This document shows, in pieces, positions 50,794 through 62,885 of a stretch of DNA of 64,000 nucleotides. Source of the DNA: Futiania mangrovi (GTDB lineage: Bacteria; Pseudomonadota; Alphaproteobacteria; Futianiales; Futianiaceae); contig NZ_JAMZFT010000001.1 of the NCBI RefSeq assembly GCF_024158125.1, positions 682,001-746,000 on the forward strand. The letters run 5' to 3'. The first letter of the stretch is position 1. The number at the start of each line of letters is the position of its first letter. The notes under the pieces were generated by a model that was given only the letters and a program-made list of their open reading frames with translations, was not told where the DNA came from and searched no databases. Both the position numbers and the translations under genes were made by a program.

Positions 50794-51543
50794 CTAGTGC
50801 TCTTCCAGGAGCCGCCCGCAACCGCCCTTGCGGTCCCCGATCCCCATGCTGCGCAGCGCATGCCAATAGGTCGCGGTGTTGATCGCGATCACCGGCTTGC
50901 CCAGCCGCGGTTCCAGTTGTGCCGCCACGCGCCCCATCGGCAGGTTTGCGCCGAACTGCACGATGGCGTCGACGTCGTCGCCGTCGAGCGCGGTGGCGGC
51001 GTCGAACAGCTCCTTCTCCGGCACGAAGGCAATCTCGACCGGTCCCTTGCATTCGAGGTGCCGGGAACGGACGAGGCTATAACCGATCGCCTCGATGAAT
51101 TCCTTCAGGTGCCCTTCCGCCACCGGATGGTAGGGGGTCAGCAGCGCGATGGACTTGCGCACGCCGAGCGCCTTGAGCGCCGCCGGCAGCGCGTCGGCGG
51201 CCTGCGTCACGCCGATGTCGCCGGCGCGCGCGCGGATACGTTCGGCGATCCGGCGTGCAGGCTCCAGCCCGCCGCCCCAGATGCTTTCCGCCGAGATGCC
51301 GAGGATCAGCCAGTCGGGCCGGCAGGTCATCACGCGGTCGAGCGATTCCTCCAGCGCGATGTCGATCCGGCGGATCAGCTCGTTGAAGTCGTTGTCGTTG
51401 TTCACCGGCTCGTCGGGGATGTGCATCCGCGAGATGTGGTTGGTCACGCCCGGAAAGCGCATGTCGTCGTATTCCGGTTGCACCACCGTGTTGGTGGACG
51501 GCGTCATGACGCCGAACTTGCAGCGGTATCCCAGCGTGTCCAT
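50794..51543 (-). CDS. Asp/Glu racemase/maleate isomerase-fold protein lacking both catalytic cysteines
   Basis: This is a 249-residue protein of the maleate cis-trans isomerase/arylmalonate decarboxylase superfamily. The substrate loop Thr-Pro-Ser-Thr-Asn-Thr (14-19) is intact. The first cysteine position reads Gly-Ile-Ser-Ala-Glu-Ser and the second reads Gln-Phe-Gly-Ala-Asn-Leu, so neither catalytic cysteine is present. It may bind a small dicarboxylate or use another acid/base pair. It is the last gene of the selenoprotein operon, after the SnoaL-like gene, and is probably part of the same pathway. Confidence 0.8.
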   Translation of the reverse strand: MDTLGYRCKFGVMTPSTNTVVQPEYDDMRFPGVTNHISRMHIPDEPVNNDNDFNELIRRIDIALEESLDRVMTCRPDWLILGISAESIWGGGLEPARRIAERIRARAGDIGVTQAADALPAALKALGVRKSIALLTPYHPVAEGHLKEFIEAIGYSLVRSRHLECKGPVEIAFVPEKELFDAATALDGDDVDAIVQFGANLPMGRVAAQLEPRLGKPVIAINTATYWHALRSMGIGDRKGGCGRLLEEH

Positions 51544-51585
51544 TGCGTGTCTCCCCGTTTTAATTGTCGTCGATCCTTGCGCGGA

Positions 51586-52158
51586 TCAGTCCGGAAACCC
51601 TGCCTCGCGGCGGTTGATGTAGACCGGGTCGCCCGCATCGCGGGTCCCCAGCACCCAGCCCGCGTGCCCCTCGACCGAGCCGTTGTTCGCCCGGGCGTGG
51701 GTCGAATCCACCGCGACCCGGCGCCGGGCGATCCGCCATTCCCCGTCCCGCTTCTCGAAGCGGTCGATGTAGCGGCCGAGCACGTCGACCCGGATGCGCC
51801 CCTGCGGCGCGCCCTCCTCGCCATCGCCCATCAGCATCTTTCGGTGGTCTTCCGATTCCGCGCCAAGCTCGAGCAGGACCAGCACATAGGTCTCCACCGC
51901 CGCGACCGTGTCGGAGGCGAACTCGATCAGGCTGCTGCCCAGCAGGTGCGACGACATGGGGATACCCGCGTGCCGGTCGCTGATCCACGCGATGAAGGCG
52001 TCGCGCGGCCCCTTGAAGTCGGTGTGGTCGTCCGTGCCGTCCTCGAAGAAGGTTGAGCGCGCCAGTTCCCAGTCGCGCCGGTCGACGCCGCGCGCATAGC
52101 GGGCGATGACGTTGCGGATGTCGCGTTCGTCCAGCAGCCGCTGCACAGGATCGCTCAT
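51586..52158 (-). CDS. SnoaL-like/NTF2-fold protein
   Basis: This is a 190-residue NTF2-like protein. Asp-Ile-Arg-Asn-Val-Ile-Ala-Arg-Tyr-Ala-Arg-Gly-Val-Asp-Arg-Arg-Asp matches the first helix of SnoaL-like small-molecule-binding domains. Members act as isomerases, dehydratases or binding proteins for small organic molecules. The gene lies between the UGSC-paralog gene and the racemase-like gene on the same strand, so an accessory catalytic step on the same compound is likely. The specific reaction is unknown. Confidence 0.82.
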   Translation of the reverse strand: MSDPVQRLLDERDIRNVIARYARGVDRRDWELARSTFFEDGTDDHTDFKGPRDAFIAWISDRHAGIPMSSHLLGSSLIEFASDTVAAVETYVLVLLELGAESEDHRKMLMGDGEEGAPQGRIRVDVLGRYIDRFEKRDGEWRIARRRVAVDSTHARANNGSVEGHAGWVLGTRDAGDPVYINRREAGFPD

Positions 52159-52223: not shown

Positions 52224-53417
52224 TCAGCCGCCACCCGGCAGGCGCACCTCGCGTGTGATCCGCGCAGGAGGCGACCCCCAGGACGGGCAATAGGCATGCT
52301 GCGGGATCGGCACGTCGCCCCCCGCCACAACGATCACGATGTCCTCCGGCGCCTTCGTTGGCGGGATCGCGCCTCGCGCCGCGCCTTCCAGCACCCAGTC
52401 CTTCCAGCGTCCTTCCGCGACGAGGGCGGACTTGAACCACGACCGCTCCCAGCTTTCCGCAGGCCAGCGGCCGTGCGTGTGCAGCCACGCGCGCACGTCG
52501 TCCTTGCTCATGCCCTTGGCGGCAAGCTCCGCCGCCGTCGCGGGGGCGAGGATCACCGTCGGGCGGCCGCTCCACATGATCTGGAAGGCGGAGGCCGCAG
52601 TGCCCATCACGGTCGCGATCTCCTCCAGCCCGCCGGTGACGTTGATGACGGTCTCGGCGCGGGTCAGCGTGACGGCGCTCGCCTCCGCGGGCAGGCCGGC
52701 TTCGGTATGGATCGCCGGCCAGGGCGACAGGGCTGCGTTCTCCGCGAGGCAGAGCGTGTAGCGCCCGGCCTGGCCGAGGCCCGCGAAGGAGACGAGGCCC
52801 GCGCGCCCGCCGCCGAGGTTCAGCATGACGAGGCGGAGCGCACGCCCGATGGTCGCATTGGCCGCCCAGCCGGGCCCCAGCGCGCCGAAGCTCGCATTGA
52901 GGCCGATCCGCTCCACGACCGGGCCTGAGACGATCAGCAGGGGCGCCACGTTCTCGTCCGTGGTCTGCACGCCATTGAGGTTGAACTCAGGGTCGAGCAG
53001 GGCGTCCACGGCGGCCAGCACGACCGGGAAATAGGCGGGCTTGCACCCGGCCATCACGGCGTTCGCGGCCACCTTCTCGACCGTTGCGAGACCCTTCAAC
53101 GGTTCGACCGCCCCCAGCACCTCGTTCGCGGACAGATGTCCCCCGGCGATCATCCGGCGCACGCGGACGGTCGTGGGCGCGACGATGGGCAGGCCGTCGG
53201 TCCAGCCGCGCCGCTCGAAGAGATCGCGCACGCGCGCCTCCGGGTCGCCGCCCGCCACTGCCTCGACGCGCTGGCGCGGGAAGTCGCCGGTCAGCGGCGC
53301 GGCCGCCATCATGCCGCGCTCCACCGCGCGCGCCTTCAGCGTGTCGTCGATCCAGCCGCCGGATGCCTGCTGCCCCGCGGGGATGACGACCCAGACCGGC
53401 GCGCCCGTCTCTCCCAT
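52224..53417 (-). CDS. Paralog of the C-terminal domain of the UGSC selenoprotein
   Basis: This is a 397-residue protein homologous to residues 200-573 of the selenoprotein encoded directly upstream. Shared features are Trp-Thr-Asp-Gly-Leu-Pro-Ile-Val (72-79), Met-Ala-Gly-Cys (122-125), a Leu-Ala-Glu-Asn-Glu/Ala segment, and Lys-Asp/Glu-Asp-Val-(Arg/Gln)-x-Trp-Leu near the C-terminal third. It has no Sec codon. The ATG at 53417 lies 13 bp after the selenoprotein stop and a purine-rich site precedes it. The two proteins probably form a heteromer or act in series. I know no assigned function for this domain. Confidence 0.85.
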   Translation of the reverse strand: MGETGAPVWVVIPAGQQASGGWIDDTLKARAVERGMMAAAPLTGDFPRQRVEAVAGGDPEARVRDLFERRGWTDGLPIVAPTTVRVRRMIAGGHLSANEVLGAVEPLKGLATVEKVAANAVMAGCKPAYFPVVLAAVDALLDPEFNLNGVQTTDENVAPLLIVSGPVVERIGLNASFGALGPGWAANATIGRALRLVMLNLGGGRAGLVSFAGLGQAGRYTLCLAENAALSPWPAIHTEAGLPAEASAVTLTRAETVINVTGGLEEIATVMGTAASAFQIMWSGRPTVILAPATAAELAAKGMSKDDVRAWLHTHGRWPAESWERSWFKSALVAEGRWKDWVLEGAARGAIPPTKAPEDIVIVVAGGDVPIPQHAYCPSWGSPPARITREVRLPGGG

Positions 53418-53430
53418 CCCTGCCAGGGCC

Positions 53431-55152
53431 TCAGCCCTGCTCCTCGAGCTTCGTCTCCCAGTCCTTCGGCAGGGCGACACGCTTGGTCACCGGGAAGCCC
53501 AGCATGCCGTTGTGCGTGAAGACGTAGCAGTTCGACCGCATCGGGTCGCCCGCGACCGCGATCATGAAATGCTCCGGCTTCGTCACGATGGGTACGAGGC
53601 GGTCCGGATCCTTACCCGCGAAGACCTTGGGCGCCTTGCCGAGCCGAACCTGGTCGTCGAGCGTCCGCTTGCCCGGCACCAGGTTGGTCCAGCGCCAGAT
53701 GTAGTCCTCGAACCGGTGGGCCGGGATGCGCGCGTGCTCGTAGAGCCAGTCCTGCACGTCCTCCTTGCTGAAGCCCGACTTGGCGATGGTCTCGGCGATC
53801 AGCGGCGAGAGCACGAGCAGGGGCCGGTAGGTGCCCTTTGCCATGCCGACCGTGAAGATCAGCTCCCATGTCGTATGCGTCGCCAGCGCATTGGCGAGAT
53901 AGGGCAGGCACTGTTCCGCCGTGGTGCCGAAGACCGACGCGATCACGTTCCCGCCCGTGTAGCGCGAGATGGTGACGGCGCTGTCCTCGCGCCCGACGCC
54001 CGCTTCCTCCGCGATGGACGGCCAGCCGATCTGGTGCAGCCGCGCCTCGTTCTCCGCCAGCACCACGCGCCAGGTGTTGCCGAACGTGCCCTTGTCGGTC
54101 TCGTGCAGCAGGAAGCCTGCGACGTTGCGGAGATAGAGCCGCCAGAACCGGCCGATGCTGGTGTTCGGCTGGAAGCCGTCGCGCAGCGCGCCCTGCTCGA
54201 AATTGAAGTCGAGCGTGCGGATCAGCGGACCGTTGAGGACGATCAGCGTCTCCGCACCCGGCGTGTTGCCCGAATGCTCGTTGCCATAGTCCGGATCGGC
54301 CATCGCCTCGGCAAGCGCGCAGAGGATCGGCATGTATTCCGGCCGGCAGCCCGCCATCACGCCGTTGACGGCGACGTTCCAGACGGTGGCAAGCCGGTTG
54401 TCCGGCAGCAGCCTTCCGAACACATGGTCCTTCGGCAGGTCGGTGAAGGCCAGGAACTCTGCGATCTTCCCGTGCGTCGGCGGCACGATGGGCAGCCCGT
54501 CGGACCAGCGGTTCTCGACGAACAGACGGTTCACGTCCTCGAAACTGCCAGAGAAGACGATCTCCTCAGGGTCGGGTTCTCGTGTTTCGACGACCTCCGC
54601 GACGGCGCCTGTCAGGCATTCCACGATCTGGTCGACCGTCACCTTGCGGATATTGGCCTGCAGCTCCTCCTCGGACTGCACGTCCACGTGGCCCGGCACC
54701 ATGGCGACGGGCAGGTTCGGGAACCCGAGGCCCACGGACGTCGTCCGGGCCTGGCCAATGAAACCTTCGCAGCAGAGAGCGACCGTGGGGACCCCGGCGG
54801 CTTCGGCAATCGCGCTCACCCGCAACACGGCGGGAGTGCACGAACCTCAGCAGCCCATCCCGGAGACGACCGCGTCGATCTTCAGCGACTTCAGCTTCTC
54901 CGGCAGCGCCGCGAGCACCTCGTGCTCCTCGTCGCCGTGGGTCGAGCCGAATTCCTCGTAGCCGACGAACTCCATGCCCGGGAAGCGCTTGCCCAGTTCT
55001 TCGGTGCAGACGTCCCAGATCTCGTCGCCGCGGAACAGATAATCCCACAGGAAGGCGACCTTCGCGCCTTCCATCGAAGCCAGCCGCGGCGCCAGCGGTT
55101 TCACGTCAACCGACTTGGCGCTGCGCGGCCAGACAACGTCATATGTCGTCAT
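53431..55152 (-). CDS. UGSC-motif selenoprotein (in-frame UGA read as selenocysteine)
   Basis: This is a 573-residue protein whose frame is interrupted only by TGA at 54849-54847, codon 102. Translation continues in the same frame as Sec-Gly-Ser-Cys-Thr-Pro, the U-G-S-C motif known from a predicted (seleno)protein family found in marine metagenomes. Residues 1-195 form the motif-bearing domain (Val-Ser-Gly-Met-Gly-Cys before Sec102; Cys-Cys-Glu at 127-129). Residues 200-573 form a second domain shared with the next gene (Trp-Ser-Asp-Gly-Leu-Pro-Ile-Val, 216-223; Met-Ala-Gly-Cys ending at 269). The sequence is conserved-looking on both sides of the UGA. A SECIS-like hairpin follows it, a GAGGGAGGGG site precedes the ATG, and tRNA-Sec, selB and selA are 4-8 kb away. 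A redox role is likely; the substrate is unknown. Confidence 0.93.
54815..54838 (-). promoter_or_regulatory. Candidate bacterial SECIS hairpin downstream of the UGA
   Basis: On the minus strand, a stem C-x-C-x-CCCGC / GCGGG-x-G-x-G (54838-54815) closes a 6-nt loop CGTGTT (54829-54824). The loop begins 18 nt after the UGA, inside the 16-37 nt window for bacterial SECIS elements, and has a G in its first two positions as SelB loops usually do. Two mismatches lie in the lower stem. Confidence 0.72.
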
Positions 55153-55374: not shown

Positions 55375-56295
55375 GTGTCCAACCGCTTCGACATTGCCGT
55401 CATCGGCGGCGGTATTGCCGGGCTGACAGCGGCGCATCACGCGGCGCTTGGCGGCGGTTCCGTCGTGCATGTGCGTGGGGAGGATTTCCCCGGCGGCCTC
55501 GTCAGCAATGTCGGGCGCATCGAAGGGTTTCCGTCCGGCGGGCGCGACGTGTCGGGCGCCGATCTGGCGCTGGGCATCGCGGAGGCGAACAAGGCGCTCG
55601 GCGTCGAGGAATTGGCCGAGAACGCCACGGCGGTCGCGAAGGCGGGTCGCGGCTTTTCGATCGAGACAGGGCAGGGGACGATCCGCGCCGGCCAGGTGAT
55701 CGCGGCGACGGGTGCGCGGCTGAAGACGCTCGACGTGCCGGGCGCCGCCGCGCTCGAAGGCAAGGGCGTGTCGCAATGCGCCTGGTGCGACGGGGCGCTG
55801 AACCGGGGCCGCGACGTGGTGGTCCTGGGGGCGGGCGATGCCGCGCTGGAGGCTGCGCTCTACCTCGCGCCGCTTGCGCGCAAGGTGACCGTCGTGACCC
55901 ATGGAGAGGGGGTACGCGGCCGGCAGGCCTATGTGACCCGTCTCGCCGACCATGAGAACGTGGATTTCCGCTGGGCCTGCGAGGTGACGGAGATCGTCGG
56001 CGGCAACGGTGTCGAGGCCGTCCGGCTCTCCGATACCGACACCGGCGAGACGGAGGACCTGCCCTGCTACGGTGTCTTCGTCTTCATCGGGCAGGTGCCC
56101 AATTCGGGCCTGTTCGCCGGGCTGGCGGAGTGCGATGGCGAGGGCCGGATCCTGACGGACACAAGCATGGAAACGGCCTGCGAGGGGCTGTTCGCCGCCG
56201 GCGCGGTGCGCGCGGGCTATGGCGGGCGGCTGGTGCATGCCGTGGGCGAGGCGGCAACCGCCGCGATGGCGGCGGCGGCGCGCTGCGACGATTGA
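55375..56295 (+). CDS. Thioredoxin-reductase-like FAD/NAD(P)H oxidoreductase
   Basis: This is a 306-residue two-domain flavoprotein of thioredoxin reductase type. FAD binding is at Gly-Gly-Gly-Ile-Ala-Gly (11-16), the redox pair is Cys135-Ala-Trp-Cys138, and NAD(P)H binding is at Gly-Ala-Gly-Asp-Ala-Ala (152-157). The short Cys-Ala-Trp-Cys loop instead of Cys-Ala-Thr-Cys suggests a special partner. It is divergent from the selenoprotein gene (222 bp) and shares a promoter element with selA, so it is the likely electron donor that reduces the Sec/Cys centre of the UGSC protein. It starts with GTG at 55375. Confidence 0.88.
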   Translation: MSNRFDIAVIGGGIAGLTAAHHAALGGGSVVHVRGEDFPGGLVSNVGRIEGFPSGGRDVSGADLALGIAEANKALGVEELAENATAVAKAGRGFSIETGQGTIRAGQVIAATGARLKTLDVPGAAALEGKGVSQCAWCDGALNRGRDVVVLGAGDAALEAALYLAPLARKVTVVTHGEGVRGRQAYVTRLADHENVDFRWACEVTEIVGGNGVEAVRLSDTDTGETEDLPCYGVFVFIGQVPNSGLFAGLAECDGEGRILTDTSMETACEGLFAAGAVRAGYGGRLVHAVGEAATAAMAAAARCDD

Positions 56296-56372
56296 ACCGG
56301 ACGCGGACGATCCGCGCACGGCAATTCAAGCCGCGCACAAGACGCGGCATCGAGCACAAGGGAGGACGCTCA

Positions 56373-57380
56373 ATGAACATGATGCCCAACTGGCGGCTCA
56401 CTGGGGCCGCTGTCGCACTTTCCGCGGCGCTCGCCGGGTCTGCTGCGGCGGAGACGACCTGGGACCTTTACGCCTTCACCGGCGTGACGCACCCGATCAC
56501 CGTGCGCTACCAGATGTTCGCCGACGAGGTGGCGCAGGCCACGAACGGCGAGTTGAAGATCATCGTGCGCCCGGCGGGCGAACTGCCGTTCAAGGCGACG
56601 GAAGTCGTCAAGGCGACGAGCAGCGGGCAGGTGCAGCTTGCCGCCGCCTATCAGGGCTTCATTTCCGGCGCCGTGCCGGTCGCGTCGATCACCAGCCTTC
56701 CGTTCCTCGTGCAGAACGCGGACCAGCTGGAGCAGATCGCGCCGAAGCTGATCGCCGCGGCTGACGCGGAATTCGGCAAGCAGGGTGTGCGGACGCTCTT
56801 CTGGCACACCTGGCCGGTGCAGAACATCTTCGGCCGGGGCGAGCCGATCCGCAGCCTGGCCGACTTCAAGGGCCGCAAGATCCGCTCCACGGACGGCAAG
56901 CAGGCGGAGATGCTGAAGCAGCTCGGCGCATCCTCGATCAGCCTGACGACGGCCGAGGTGCCGGTGGCGGTCGAGCGCGGCGTGGCCGACGGCTACATCA
57001 CGGCCGCCTTCAACGTGGTGGGCGCGAAGTGGCAGGAGTTCACCGACTGGGCATGGCTCTGCGAGGTGCACATCGGCGGCCCGTCCTACCTGCTGATGAA
57101 CATCGACGCCTACAACGCGCTGCCCGACGATGTGCGGGCGAAGCTCGACGAGGTCGCAAAGTCCTTCGGGCCGAAGTTCCGGGCGCTAAACCTCGCCGAC
57201 GAGAAGACGGCGCTGGAGTCGCTCGAGAAGGAGCACGGGGTGACCATGGTGAAGCCCAGCGACGCTGAGATCGCCGAGCTGATCGACCGCATGACGCCCT
57301 ATTGGGAGACCTGGGCCACCCAGAACGGTGACGCTGCGGTCAAGCTGCTGGCCGAGGTCCGTTCGGAACTCGGGAAATAG
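56373..57380 (+). CDS. dctP: TRAP transporter solute-binding protein (DctP family) of the UGSC locus
   Basis: This is a 335-residue DctP-type binding protein. The signal peptide ends at Ala-Ala-Ala-Glu near 27; Gly-Glu-Leu-Pro-Phe and Val-Pro-Val-Ala-Val-Glu-Arg-Gly-Val-Ala-Asp-Gly correspond to the ligand-binding core. GGAGG precedes the ATG at 56373. It follows the flavoprotein gene by 77 bp and leads dctQ and dctM. It probably captures the small acid used by the selenoprotein system. Confidence 0.92.
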   Translation: MNMMPNWRLTGAAVALSAALAGSAAAETTWDLYAFTGVTHPITVRYQMFADEVAQATNGELKIIVRPAGELPFKATEVVKATSSGQVQLAAAYQGFISGAVPVASITSLPFLVQNADQLEQIAPKLIAAADAEFGKQGVRTLFWHTWPVQNIFGRGEPIRSLADFKGRKIRSTDGKQAEMLKQLGASSISLTTAEVPVAVERGVADGYITAAFNVVGAKWQEFTDWAWLCEVHIGGPSYLLMNIDAYNALPDDVRAKLDEVAKSFGPKFRALNLADEKTALESLEKEHGVTMVKPSDAEIAELIDRMTPYWETWATQNGDAAVKLLAEVRSELGK

Positions 57381-57465: not shown

Positions 57466-58005
57466 GTGCAGCACGGCAACCGCATGACGGACGATGCATC
57501 GGAACCGGGCGGCCCAAGGGGGACGGGGCGCCTGGCCCGTGCCGCGGCCGCGCTCTCCGATGTCTTCGGCGCGCTGGCCGGGGTCGCGCTTGCCGGCATC
57601 GTGGTCATCGTCTGCACCGAGATCGTGTTGCGCCTGTTCCGCCATTCGCTTCTCGTGACCGACGAGATGGGGGCCTATCTCAATGCGGCGGTGGTGTTTC
57701 TCGGGCTCGCATACAGCCTGCGCCACGGCGCGTTCATCCGCATGGAATTCGTCTACGACCGGCTGAGCCGCCCCGTCCGGCGGCTCGCGACATGGTGCTT
57801 CGTGCTGATCACGACGGTGTTCGTCGCCGCGCTCGTCTATGTCGCGTGGAAGCACGTGCAGTACGCCTATGTGCAGGATACCCGCGCGATCTCCGTGCTC
57901 GCGACGCCCGAATGGATCCCGCAATCCCTGATGCTGCTCGGCCTCGCGGCGCTTCTCGTGCAACTCGTCGCCTTCATCTGGGAGAGGGTGCGCCATGTCC
58001 CCTGA
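57466..58005 (+). CDS. dctQ: TRAP transporter small permease (DctQ)
   Basis: This is a 179-residue DctQ-type subunit with four membrane segments (about 38-60, 70-90, 108-130 and 145-170) and family-like Glu-Ile-Val-Leu-Arg-Leu-Phe and Thr-Asp-Glu-Met-Gly-Ala-Tyr. The GTG at 57466 follows a GGGAGGGGGG site; an ATG at 57484 is the alternative. It pairs with DctM, whose gene starts 39 bp later. Confidence 0.9.
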   Translation: MQHGNRMTDDASEPGGPRGTGRLARAAAALSDVFGALAGVALAGIVVIVCTEIVLRLFRHSLLVTDEMGAYLNAAVVFLGLAYSLRHGAFIRMEFVYDRLSRPVRRLATWCFVLITTVFVAALVYVAWKHVQYAYVQDTRAISVLATPEWIPQSLMLLGLAALLVQLVAFIWERVRHVP

Positions 58006-58044: not shown

Positions 58045-59379
58045 ATGAGCCTCGACCTGCTCGTCGCCGTGCTGATCGGCGGGCTCGCCTTCCTGCTGCT
58101 GATCGGCCAGTGGACGGCGTTCGCACTGGGCACCACGGGGGTGGTGATCCTCTACCTCAGCAAGGGCGTGATCGGCCTGGAGGCATTGAGCTCGGTCGTC
58201 TGGAACAACACCGCGAGCTACATCCTGGTGGCCGTGCCGCTGTTCCTGCTGATGGGCGACCTCATCCTGCGCAGCGGCGTCAGCGGCTATTTCTACCGAG
58301 GCGTCGTCGTTCTGCTGCGATGGCTGCCGGGCGGGCTGCTGCACGCCAACATCATGTCTTGCGCCATCTTCTCCGCCGTCTCGGGGTCGAGCGTTGCGAC
58401 CGCCGCGACGGTCGGAACCGTTGCCATCCCGGAGATGACGCGGCGCCAGTACGCCCCGCGCATGATCTTCGGCTCGCTGGCGGCTGGCGGTACGCTGGGC
58501 ATCCTGATCCCGCCCTCTATCGTGATGATCCTCTACGGCGCGCTGGTGGAGGAATCGATCGCCCAGCTGTTCATGGCGGGGCTCATCCCCGGGCTAACGC
58601 TCGCCGGCATCTTCATGGCCTATATCGCCGTGCGCATCGCACTCAATCCGGCGCTCGCGCCCGAGGGCAAGGCACGCGAGGACATCGGGCAGGAGGAGGC
58701 GGAGGAGGCGGGGGAGGAGCCCGGCTGGCGCGACGCGCTGCACGTGCTGCCGATCTTCGCCCTGCTGGCGGTCGTGCTGGGCAGCATCTACGCCGGCATC
58801 GCCACCCCGACCGAGGCGGGCGGGATCGGCGTCGCGGGCGCGCTTCTTCTCGCGGCGGGCTATCGCGGACTGAACTGGGAGGTGTTGCGCGGCTCCCTCA
58901 TGTCGGCGGTGCGCACCACCTGCATGGTGGTGTTCATCATCGTAGGCGCGCAGATCCTCGCGACCGCGCTGACCTATTCGGGGGCGAGCAGGGCGATCAG
59001 CGAGTGGGTGCTCGCGCTCGGCCTGTCGAAGTGGATGTTCTTCGCGATGCTGGTCCTGCTTTACGTGGGGCTGGGGTTCTTCGTGGACGGGCTGTCCATG
59101 ATCTACATGACCCTGCCGGTGCTTCTGCCCCTGGTGCGCACCTTCGGCTTCGACCTCGTGTGGTTCGGCGTCGTGCTGACCATCCTGATCGAGCTTGGCC
59201 AGATCACGCCGCCGGTCGGATTGAACCTGTTCACGATCCACGGGATATCGGGGGGAAGCCGGTTCTCCGAGGTGGTGCGGGGCGCGGCGCCCTATGTGGC
59301 GCTGATGCTGGCGATGATCCTTCTGCTCGTGCTGTTTCCCGGCCTCGCGCTGTGGCTGCCGGCGACGATGATGAACTAG
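58045..59379 (+). CDS. dctM: TRAP transporter large permease (DctM)
   Basis: This is a 444-residue DctM permease with about 12-13 membrane segments. Family marks include Ser-Gly-Ser-Ser-Val-Ala-Thr-Ala-Ala, Ile-Pro-Pro-Ser-Ile-Val-Met-Ile-Leu-Tyr-Gly and Thr-Pro-Thr-Glu-Ala-Gly-Gly-Ile-Gly. It completes the importer of the selenoprotein locus. It ends 15 bp before the 3' end of tRNA-Sec, which is on the opposite strand. It is driven by a Na+ gradient in known systems. Confidence 0.95.
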   Translation: MSLDLLVAVLIGGLAFLLLIGQWTAFALGTTGVVILYLSKGVIGLEALSSVVWNNTASYILVAVPLFLLMGDLILRSGVSGYFYRGVVVLLRWLPGGLLHANIMSCAIFSAVSGSSVATAATVGTVAIPEMTRRQYAPRMIFGSLAAGGTLGILIPPSIVMILYGALVEESIAQLFMAGLIPGLTLAGIFMAYIAVRIALNPALAPEGKAREDIGQEEAEEAGEEPGWRDALHVLPIFALLAVVLGSIYAGIATPTEAGGIGVAGALLLAAGYRGLNWEVLRGSLMSAVRTTCMVVFIIVGAQILATALTYSGASRAISEWVLALGLSKWMFFAMLVLLYVGLGFFVDGLSMIYMTLPVLLPLVRTFGFDLVWFGVVLTILIELGQITPPVGLNLFTIHGISGGSRFSEVVRGAAPYVALMLAMILLLVLFPGLALWLPATMMN

Positions 59380-59394: not shown

Positions 59395-59490
59395 TGGCGG
59401 AAGAGGGTGGGAGTCGAACCCACCAGACGCGGCTTGCGCGCCTCAACGGGTTTGAAGCCCGTGCGGACCACCGGGATCCGATCCTCTTCC
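59395..59490 (-). tRNA. selC: Selenocysteine tRNA (anticodon UCA)
   Basis: This is a 96-nt tRNA with encoded CCA. The 8-bp acceptor stem is GGAAGAGG (59490-59483) with CCTCTTCC (59406-59399), then G and CCA (59397-59395). The anticodon loop CTTCAAA with anticodon TCA lies at 59455-59453, on a 5-bp ACGGG/CCCGT stem. A long variable arm follows, and the T-arm has GGTTCGACTCC. The 8-bp acceptor and long extra arm are the hallmarks of bacterial tRNA-Sec. The 5' half overlaps the end of the selB reading frame. Confidence 0.97.
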
Positions 59491-61452
59491 TGAAAGCGTG
59501 TGTGTCTGCATGGCGGCGCGCGTGCCCGTGCCGTCCCCGGTCCCGAACACGGTGCCGGCGGGCCGGACGGTCTTGCGCGTGCCGCCGTCGCGGCGGGTGA
59601 AGCCCAGCCGGTCGAAATATTCCAGCATCTCGATCGTCAGGTTGCGGCCGAGGCCCGACCGGTCGCGGAACTCCGCGGCGGTGAAGCCCTCGTCCGCCGC
59701 TTGCCGCGTCCCGTCCTCCGCAAGGTCCGCGAGGCGCCGCAGCGTCGCTTGCGTCAGGTAGCGGTTGGGGGTCACGCGGGTCGCCTCTCCCAACATGGCG
59801 GCGCGGGCCAGCAGTGCCTCCGCCCGGTCCTGTGCAATGTCGAGCGCGGCCGCAAGTTCGGAGATCACGGGCGGGCGTCCCGGCGCCTCCAGCAGCGGCT
59901 TCGCGCGGGCCCAGAGCGCGCCATCCTCGGCGTTCAGGCGCGGCGCGTGGCTCGCAAGCCGCAGGAAGGGGCCGGCGCGCACGGCCTCGCCCGCTGCCAC
60001 GAGGCCGGAGACGGCGGCGTCGAGCGCTGCGGGCAGGCAGGGCCGGGGCAGCATCCGTGCCAGCGCGGTGCGGTCGGGGCCCGCCCGTTCCGGCTGGCTG
60101 CGGTGATGATGGGCAAGGGCGTCCAGGATGGCGCACCTCAGGGCTTCGGCATGGCCGCGCGTCAGGCCTGCGTCCCCGTCCGCCCCGGAGGCGACCACGG
60201 GCACGCGCGCGCGCATCGCCTCTGCCTCGGCCGGATCCAGGTTCCAGGCGGTGTCGAGCGCACCCAGCGGCACACCGCCCGGCATCCCTTCCAGCAGTGA
60301 CTGCAAAGCCGCCGCTCGGCCGCGGCCGCGCAGTGCGGCCAGCCACGCGAGCCGTGCCGGTGCGCCGCGTCCACGCTGCACGCCTTGCGGGTCGACGATA
60401 CGGCCGCCGCCCAACGTCTCACGTGCTGACTGGTTGCGCAGGATCACGGCGTCGCCTGCCGCCGCGACGGCCGGGCGCGAGAGGACGATCTGCGCGAGGG
60501 CGCTTTCCCCAGGTGCAAGCGTTGCGCGGTCCAGCAGGAACAGCCTCCCGGGGATATCCGCGCTGCCCAGGTGCACATGAACCGGCGTGTCCCGCTTCAG
60601 CGGGCGATCGTGCGTGGCGAGCAGGCGGACATCGACGTCGAGGCGCGCCGACGCAGGCGCCACGCGCGGCGCCACCAGCCAGTCGCCGCGGTGAATGTCG
60701 GCCTTCTCCACCCGGCCCGCCAGGTTGATCGCGCAGCGGTCGCCGGCGCGGGCCACCTCCGCCTGGCGGTTCTGCACCCTCAGCCCGCGGATCCGTACGT
60801 CGCGGCCGCTGGGCTCCAGCCGCAGCGTTTCGCCTTGCCCTGCGCGGCCCGACTGGACGAGGCCGGTGACCACCAGCCCCGTGCCGTCGACATGGAAGGC
60901 GCGGTCTATCGCAAGACGGAAGTTTCCACGCGGGTCGGGCGCGGGGGCGCTTTCGGCGAGCGCGCGCAGGCGTGCGGCAAGTTCGGCTACTCCCTCGCCG
61001 GTCGTGCTGGAGACGGGCAGCACGGGGGCATCCGCCAGGCCCGTCCCCTCCAGCAGGCGCGCGACCTCCCCGCGGGCCGCGTCGAGGCGGGCGGGGCTCA
61101 CGCGGTCGGCCTTGGTCAGCGCCACCAGCCCTTCGCGCACCCCGACGAGGTCGAGCACGGCGAGGTGCTCCAGCGTCTGCGGCATCGGACCGTCGTCCGC
61201 CGCGATCACCAGCAGCGCCGCCCGTATCCCCGTCACCCCCGCCAGCATGTTGCGGACGAAGCGGCTGTGGCCCGGCACGTCGACGAAGCCGATGGTATGG
61301 CCCGGCGCGATCTGCGTGTCGTAGACGAAGCCCAGGTCGATGGTCAGGCCGCGCGCCTTCTCTTCCGGCAGGCGGTCTGCGTCCTGCCTGGTCAGCGCGC
61401 GCAGAAGGCTCGTCTTGCCGTGGTCGACATGGCCCGCCGTGGCGATGATCAT
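59443..61452 (-). CDS. selB: Selenocysteine-specific elongation factor SelB
   Basis: This is a 669-residue protein. The N-terminal GTPase has Gly-His-Val-Asp-His-Gly-Lys-Thr (7-14), Asp-Val-Pro-Gly-His (switch 2) and Thr-Lys-Ala-Asp. EF-Tu-like domains 2 and 3 follow, then winged-helix repeats at the C-terminus that bind SECIS RNA. It delivers Sec-tRNA-Sec to in-frame UGA codons. The ATG at 61452 overlaps the selA stop (ATGA 61449-61452). Oddly, the frame runs 15 codons into tRNA-Sec and stops at a TGA within the tRNA (59445-59443); the usual family end is about 30 residues earlier. Confidence 0.95.
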
Positions 61453-62885
61453 GGCGCCCCGTCCGAAAGGTCGAGCGCGCCGAGTTGCCCGACGAACGCT
61501 GCCTCGTCCTCCAGGCAGCGCAGGTCGAACAGCAGCGCACCGCCCGCGATGCGTCCGATCACTGGGCGCGGCAGGCGGCGGAACGCGCGCGCCAGCGCCT
61601 CCACCTTGCCGCCCGCCTTCCGCCCCCCGTGCGGGGTGAGCGCGAGCGCCCGGCTCGGCAGAAGGTCCACAGGCAGGGCGCCGCTGCCGATCTGGCTCCG
61701 GCACGCCACGATCTCCACGTCCGCGGCCCCGTCGACTGCGGTGCGCACCGGCCCCGCGAGACGCTCGGCCCGCCCGGCGATCTCCGCTTCCGGAACGGTC
61801 AGCATCCGCAGCACGGGCAGCCGCGCGGCCAGGCGTTCGGGGCTCTCGTAGAGGCGCAAAGTCGCCGACAGCCCGGCGAGAATGATCTTGTCGAGGCGCA
61901 GCGCGCGCTTCATCGGGTTGCGGCGGATGCGGTCCACGAGATCCGCACGACCGGCGACGATCCCGGCTTGCGGGCCGCCTAGCAGCTTGTCGCCGCTGAA
62001 GGTGACGAGGTCCATGCCGGCAGCCAGCGACTCGCCGGGCGTAGGCTCGTGCGGCAGGCCGTAGCGTTCGAGATCGACGAGCGTGCCGCTCCCCAGGTCG
62101 CAGACGGCGGGAAGCCCGGCCTCATGGGCGATCCGGGCGACGTCGGCTTCGCTCACGGCGGCGGTGAAGCCGGTGACGGCGTAATTGCTGGCATGCACCT
62201 TCATCAGCAGTGCCGTTTCGTCCCCGATCGCGCCGGCATAGTCGCGCGGGTGCGTGCGGTTCGTGGTGCCGACCTCCCGCAGCCGGGCGCCGGCGCGCGC
62301 CATCACGTCGGGGATGCGGAACGCGCCGCCGATCTCGACAAGCTCGCCGCGGGAGACGATCACCTCCCGGTCCTGCGCCAGCGTGTTGAGCACGAGCAGC
62401 ACGGCGGCTGCATTGTTGTTGACGAGGGTCGCGGCTTCTGCCCCGGTCAGGCGGCAGACCTGTGCCTCGACACGCGCGTCCCGGTCCCCGCGGCGTCCGG
62501 TCTCGAGGTCGTATTCGAGGTCCGATGGCTCGGCCGCCGCCGCTGCGATCTCGCGGATCGCTTCCTCCGCCAGCGGCGCCCGGCCGAGGTTGGTGTGGAT
62601 CACGGTGCCGGTGAGGTTGAAGACGCTGCGGACCGCCGGTGCGAGCCGCTCCGCGATCCGCGTCCCTGCCATGCCGGCAAGCGCCTGCGGGTCGGAAAAC
62701 GTCTCCGCGTCCGCTCCGCCCGCGATCCGCGCTCGAGCTTCGGCGAGCACGTCGCGGACGGCATCGCGCACCGCTGTCGCGCCGTGCGCAAGGACGAGCG
62801 GTTCGAACGGCGCGCTCTTCAGCAGGGCGTCGATGGATGGCAGCAGATCGTAACGCGGGCGCGCATGTGTCCTGGCGGCATCCAT
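61449..62885 (-). CDS. selA: L-seryl-tRNA(Sec) selenium transferase SelA
   Basis: This is a 478-residue PLP enzyme. The Lys300 in [12 protein letters not shown] is the PLP lysine. Thr-Val-Ile-His-Thr-Asn-Leu-Gly-Arg and Val-Asn-Asn-Asn-Ala-Ala-Ala are typical SelA segments. It converts Ser-tRNA-Sec to Sec-tRNA-Sec using selenophosphate. It is the first gene of selA-selB-tRNA-Sec. A promoter with the 12-bp motif shared with the flavoprotein gene precedes it. No selD for selenophosphate supply is visible in the window. Confidence 0.96.

Follow-up and report, generated by a model that had tools for sequence, protein, structure and literature searches.

The UGSC family of selenoproteins was reported in 2008 in the Global Ocean Sampling selenoproteome paper, which supposes a thioredoxin-like fold for the family and already includes a fusion of it (UGSC/Unknown_1, Fig. 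S1A; PMC2398784). In a 2026 review, the UGSC family still stands among those without known function, and D-proline and glycine reductases are described as systems in which selenocysteine (Sec)-containing subunits cooperate with a substrate-holding partner and thioredoxin-type systems supply the electrons (PMC13188914). The gene that we analyze here, from a 64,000-nucleotide stretch of the Futiania mangrovi genome (the window), can be compared to each of these. As in the UGSC family (PF24696 and NF041046; PMC2398784 and PMC13188914), there is a UGSC motif, an in-frame UGA, a SECIS-like hairpin, and Sec machinery in the host; what differs is that the protein belongs to a divergent fused subfamily, with the motif context CUGSCTPAV instead of the family's DUGSCTSCSLHD. 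As in the UGSC/Unknown_1 fusion, a UGSC domain is joined to a conserved domain of unknown function in aquatic microbes, a likeness drawn from the main-text description, which is given without domain order (PMC2398784). As in PrdB and GrdB (PF07355, TIGR04483, and TIGR01917), a hydrophobic strand is followed by U-x-x-C, a helix, and E-x-x-G-I-P-T, with the Sec columns aligned, but the partner of the UGSC domain is an undescribed domain (hereafter the C domain), whereas PrdB and GrdB are partnered by the pyruvoyl subunit PrdA or GrdE. With the family and one UGSC fusion on record since 2008 (PMC2398784), the novelty here is reduced; what our analysis adds is the kinship to GrdB and PrdB with Sec aligned on Sec, the prediction of a Rossmann-like fold, the near-constant C domain, and a flavoprotein found in 11 loci. 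Neither the kinship nor the constant partner is mentioned in the searched passages of the UGSC papers, a search that did not extend to most subscription papers, and we claim no priority for them.

The fusion gene occupies positions 53431-55152 of the minus strand and, with TGA read as U, encodes 573 amino acids from an ATG at 55152 (preceded by the Shine-Dalgarno-like stretch GGGAGGGG) to a stop at 53433-53431. We confirm what a sequence-only reading of this DNA had noticed: two minus-strand frames, 54850-55152 and 53431-54846, share one phase, with nothing but the TGA at 54849-54847 between them. That reading had recognized the join as the Sec-Gly-Ser-Cys motif of the UGSC family, and the Pfam UGSC model (PF24696) indeed matches the read-through protein across the TGA, at about residues 4-180 (107.2 bits, E 1.4e-30; curated cut-off 25 bits), with ...SGMGCUGSCTPAVLR... 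around Sec102. It had also described a second large domain fused to the motif domain over 573 residues, which corresponds to the UGSC domain and the C domain in one frame. The NCBIfam UGSC equivalog model (NF041046) gives the fusion protein 54.5 bits against a cut-off of 125, so the NCBI model would not name it and the protein is placed in the wider family only.

Homologues agree with Sec at this codon. A protein-based scan of public genomes found four full-length fused homologues (54-58% identity), one in Novosphingobium and the others in MAGs of Sphingomonadaceae, Gammaproteobacteria, and Burkholderiales; each has TGA at the equivalent codon. When regions from relatives of the same class were added, giving an alignment of 17 fused coding sequences, all 17 were found to have TGA at the Sec102 codon. 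A fused homologue from a planctomycete (locus L022) reads CGLC, with Cys in place of Sec, and a second Cys form with the same motif occurs in locus L086; the homologues thus carry U or C at residue 102, as the sequence-only reading had said they should if the codon encodes Sec. Its further expectation that conservation would run on past the UGA also holds: mean pairwise identity rises from 53% before the codon to 56% in the first 100 residues past it and 62% in the remainder. A search of 385 genomes of the class with PF24696 gave 96 matches, spread over 37 genomes; exactly one TGA occurs in 91 of these matches and none in the other 5, which, like the 17 of 17 in the alignment, far exceeds what chance would give. 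SelA scores above its cut-off in 55 of the 385 genomes overall: in 33 of the 34 with a TGA-bearing UGSC gene versus 22 of the 351 others (Fisher p 7e-32), and the single TGA-UGSC genome with no selA above the cut-off (G011) is 77% complete. In each of five genomes (G560, G567, G647, G718, and G724) there are six to eight UGSC domains, almost all of which contain TGA, a copy number that is unusual for one selenoprotein family.

Immediately behind the UGA lies a putative bacterial SECIS hairpin (54810-54843, minus strand), delineated by homologue folds, single-codon columns, and pair counts. Its putative core, at 54834-54819, has the stem CCCGC/GCGGG and the loop CGUGUU and corresponds to codons +5 to +9 after the UGA (CCC GCC GTG YTG/ATG CGG). 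Among the 90 columns of the 17-sequence alignment in which an invariant amino acid has fourfold or higher degeneracy, only six use a single codon throughout, and four of these six are hairpin codons (+5, +6, +7, and +9; p 6e-6). In unfused UGSC genes, the peptide at this place is a different one (SCSLHD) and a hairpin is kept at equal distance. The folding energy of the window hairpin taken alone is not exceptional (z -1.1), and the invariance of the core stem keeps covariation counts modest. By these sequence comparisons, the hairpin just downstream of the UGA is fixed at synonymous sites and qualifies as a putative bacterial SECIS element.

The machinery for Sec insertion, an addition to what the sequence-only reading had noticed, is encoded 4-8 kb from the TGA of the fusion gene, all on the minus strand: tRNA-Sec (selC, anticodon UCA) at 59399-59490, found by Rfam RF01852 (76.8 bits) and by ARAGORN; selB, the Sec-specific elongation factor, at 59443-61452 (TIGR00475, 396.6 bits, above cut-off); and selA, the Sec synthase, at 61449-62885 (TIGR00474, 575.8 bits, above cut-off). 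With selD on another contig (252000-256000 of contig C3 of this genome, G000; locus L141), SelA, SelB, SelD, and tRNA-Sec are all encoded in the genome; SelD is fused to an NADH-dehydrogenase-like (Ndh) flavoprotein domain and has Cys (CGGCGAK), not Sec. Four other loci (L020, L095, L100, and L101) likewise have sel genes next to UGSC genes. Formate dehydrogenase was considered as a reason for the sel genes and rejected, as no TGA lies within the matched part of the genome's FdhA homologues, which leaves UGSC as the sole selenoprotein found in the genome in a non-exhaustive look. The selB frame enters the tRNA-Sec gene by 48 nt before its stop (59443-59490, minus strand), and the selB profile match stops about 43 residues before the end of the frame. 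The comparative evidence identifies the TGA at 54849-54847 as an in-frame selenocysteine codon.

The UGSC domain itself (residues ~3-181; 54610-55146, minus strand) is distantly related to a known Sec domain. The NCBIfam PrdB model matches 16 of 32 UGSC domains (best 3.5e-5) and the GrdB model 11 of them (best 9.8e-6), and profile-profile comparison of UGSC with the GrdB/PrdB type gives 83% (E 1e-5) with Sec column on Sec column, while 20 column-shuffled control profiles all stay below 1%. The similarity is plain to the eye: PF07355-type selenoproteins from the same genome group read VDAVLLTPVUPxCxxAVxxLxxxLExxGIPT, and the UGSC counterpart reads VDAVVSGMGCUGSCTPAVLRxSAxAExAGIPT. Full-length membership in the GrdB/PrdB family is not found (PrdB scores 16-19 bits against a cut-off of 300), and the fusion protein has no PF07355 hit in Pfam. 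With matches that are weak but consistent and controls that are negative, the sequences indicate distant homology between the UGSC domain and the Sec domain of GrdB and PrdB. We found no PF07355 protein in the genome of the window, and such proteins were accordingly dismissed as part of this locus. An AlphaFold (AF2) model of the domain (mean pLDDT 85, pTM 0.87) has an alternating five-strand beta-alpha fold with Sec directly after strand 94-100, and its structural neighbors are Rossmann, flavodoxin, and receiver folds (Z 8-11), a general Rossmann-like match only; the UGSC profile, run against PDB sequences, returned nothing usable. From this model, the fold is predicted to be Rossmann-like; together with the kinship to GrdB and PrdB, the model makes a thioredoxin fold less probable.

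The C domain (about 370-377 residues; 53434-54564, minus strand) is fused to the UGSC domain here and encoded by a separate adjacent gene elsewhere; in the loci that we read, it is fused to or lies beside nearly every UGSC gene, the exception being L104. Its conserved motifs are W[ST]DGLPxxPPT, AxNAVMAGCxPEYMP, NGP, IGRAxRL, and AEN, and it has no match in Pfam or NCBIfam. A stand-alone paralogue, C', is encoded at 52224-53417 on the minus strand, its ATG 13 nt past the stop of the fusion gene, and the tandem of fusion gene and C' recurs in eight fused loci (L071, L072, L073, L074, L075, L077, L078, and L080). Assignment of the C domain to PrdA/GrdE was rejected for want of a library match, and the conserved neighbors of the loci read include no PrdA/GrdE pyruvoyl subunit; because the C domain does not match PrdA/GrdE, the analogy to these reductases may be limited to the Sec domain. 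Searching structures with the isolated C domain yielded nothing significant: a class I fumarate hydratase fold (Foldseek top rows, E 7e-3, probability about 0.5, TM 0.22) and a chorismate mutase fold (VIA-align Z at most about 5) were both discarded as too weak. Two separate C-domain genes (L095:8519-10108 and L101:8490-10106, both minus strand) have an N-terminal peroxiredoxin/thioredoxin-like stretch that scores below the Pfam cut-off, with a CPTC in that of L095; this stretch links the system to a thioredoxin-type electron supply.

Divergent from the fusion gene is a gene for a thioredoxin-reductase-like flavoprotein with a CAWC motif (55375-56295, plus strand; TIGR01292 232.8 bits, below the cut-off of 343). 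Such a CxxC flavoprotein adjoins UGSC and C in 11 loci, nine of them fused, and CxxCDG is kept in all 11; about half of the fused loci read have no flavoprotein. Because the genome also encodes a separate bona fide TrxB on contig C3 that scores better (407 bits vs 232), the flavoprotein of the locus looks dedicated. Further along the plus strand is a TRAP transporter, made up of the substrate-binding protein DctP (56370-57380; NCBIfam and Pfam matches), a DctQ-like small permease (57466-58005), and the large permease DctM (58045-59379; TIGR00786, 338.6 bits). The DctQ-like gene has no NCBIfam hit; it lies between DctP and DctM and matches the gene in the DctQ position in L071.

Taken with the gene neighborhood, which is the reason for proposing a two-component reductase, the sequence data and the analogy to PrdB and GrdB suggest, with a probability that we put at roughly 55%, that the fusion protein is a two-domain selenoenzyme that acts like PrdB or GrdB on a small organic acid and is supplied by NADPH through the flavoprotein. 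By that analogy, the Sec102 selenolate would attack a substrate bound where its own domain meets the C domain, Cys105 would resolve the bond formed at selenium, and the resulting Se-S bridge would be reduced by electrons from NADPH passing through the adjacent flavoprotein, with or without thioredoxin as an intermediary. As the presence of the TRAP transporter next door suggests, the substrate would probably be a small organic acid that this transporter imports, and the UGSC/C pairs, which occur as several paralogues in a genome (up to eight), suggest different substrates and not a single housekeeping thiol function. We would go further only tentatively, at somewhat less than even odds: UGSC, C, and the flavoprotein may form a selenium-dependent reductase system not described before, which would combine the Sec scaffold of the D-proline and glycine reductases of anaerobes with an unrelated partner domain, would have been copied repeatedly in bacteria that use Sec so as to serve different small substrates, and would have the window protein as its single-chain form. 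Through the kinship, the C domain, and the dedicated flavoprotein, what had been "some thioredoxin-like protein" would become an enzyme system whose components have names and can be tested.

Other explanations can be set against this one at the level of the codon and at the level of the enzyme. Under the standard code, the TGA would be a plain stop, or the product of mutation or sequencing error, between two genes, the second starting from GTG 54828, and such a GTG start is present 7 codons downstream of the TGA. This is very improbable given that all 17 homologues keep the TGA and are similar both before and after it, that Cys replaces it in L022 and L086, that a hairpin under synonymous constraint follows it, and that sel genes are nearby and co-occur, as selA, with the family; the 17 homologues and the synonymous constraint lead us to discard a plain stop, a pseudogene, and a sequencing error alike. 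If Sec is accepted, the protein could instead be a thioredoxin-fold selenoprotein of the thiol-disulfide or peroxide type, a general antioxidant whose thioredoxin reductase is the flavoprotein. The resemblance of UxxC to CxxC redox motifs, the TrxR-like neighboring gene, the thioredoxin-like stretch on some partner genes, and the "likely Trx-like fold" given for the family in PMC2398784 would all suit this, but we consider it unlikely: the five-strand beta-alpha AF2 model finds its neighbors among Rossmann, flavodoxin, and receiver folds at Z 8-11, the sequence kinship is to GrdB and PrdB, and several paralogues per genome with an adjacent TRAP transporter are better suited to a catabolic role.

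A different possibility keeps the GrdB/PrdB scaffold and drops the reduction, with Sec102 as the nucleophile or a metal ligand of an isomerase, lyase, or transferase and the flavoprotein serving only to keep Sec102 reduced. CoA-transferases and SDRs are among the neighbors, and a relative of Asp/Glu racemases and arylmalonate decarboxylases is encoded nearby (50794-51543 in the window; also in L080). Against this, the characterized relatives of the Sec domain, GrdB and PrdB, belong to reductases, and the locus has its own dedicated CxxC flavoprotein, a sign of electron turnover, so we give this alternative, like the thioredoxin-fold one, a minor share of the probability and prefer the two-domain reductase. 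The racemase relative also lies near the fusion gene in L080, and in the window it and a SnoaL-like protein follow C' on the same strand (50794-52158, minus strand).

Annotation under the plain code would split the fusion gene in two, and its branch scores below the cut-off of the NCBI family model. A second selenoprotein, of the GrdB/PF07355 type, is encoded directly downstream of a UGSC gene in one relative (P0002; L095:7133-7954, minus strand), with Sec at residue 153 in UPFC. In class relatives we saw 26 such UPxC frames, which the plain code ends at the TGA.
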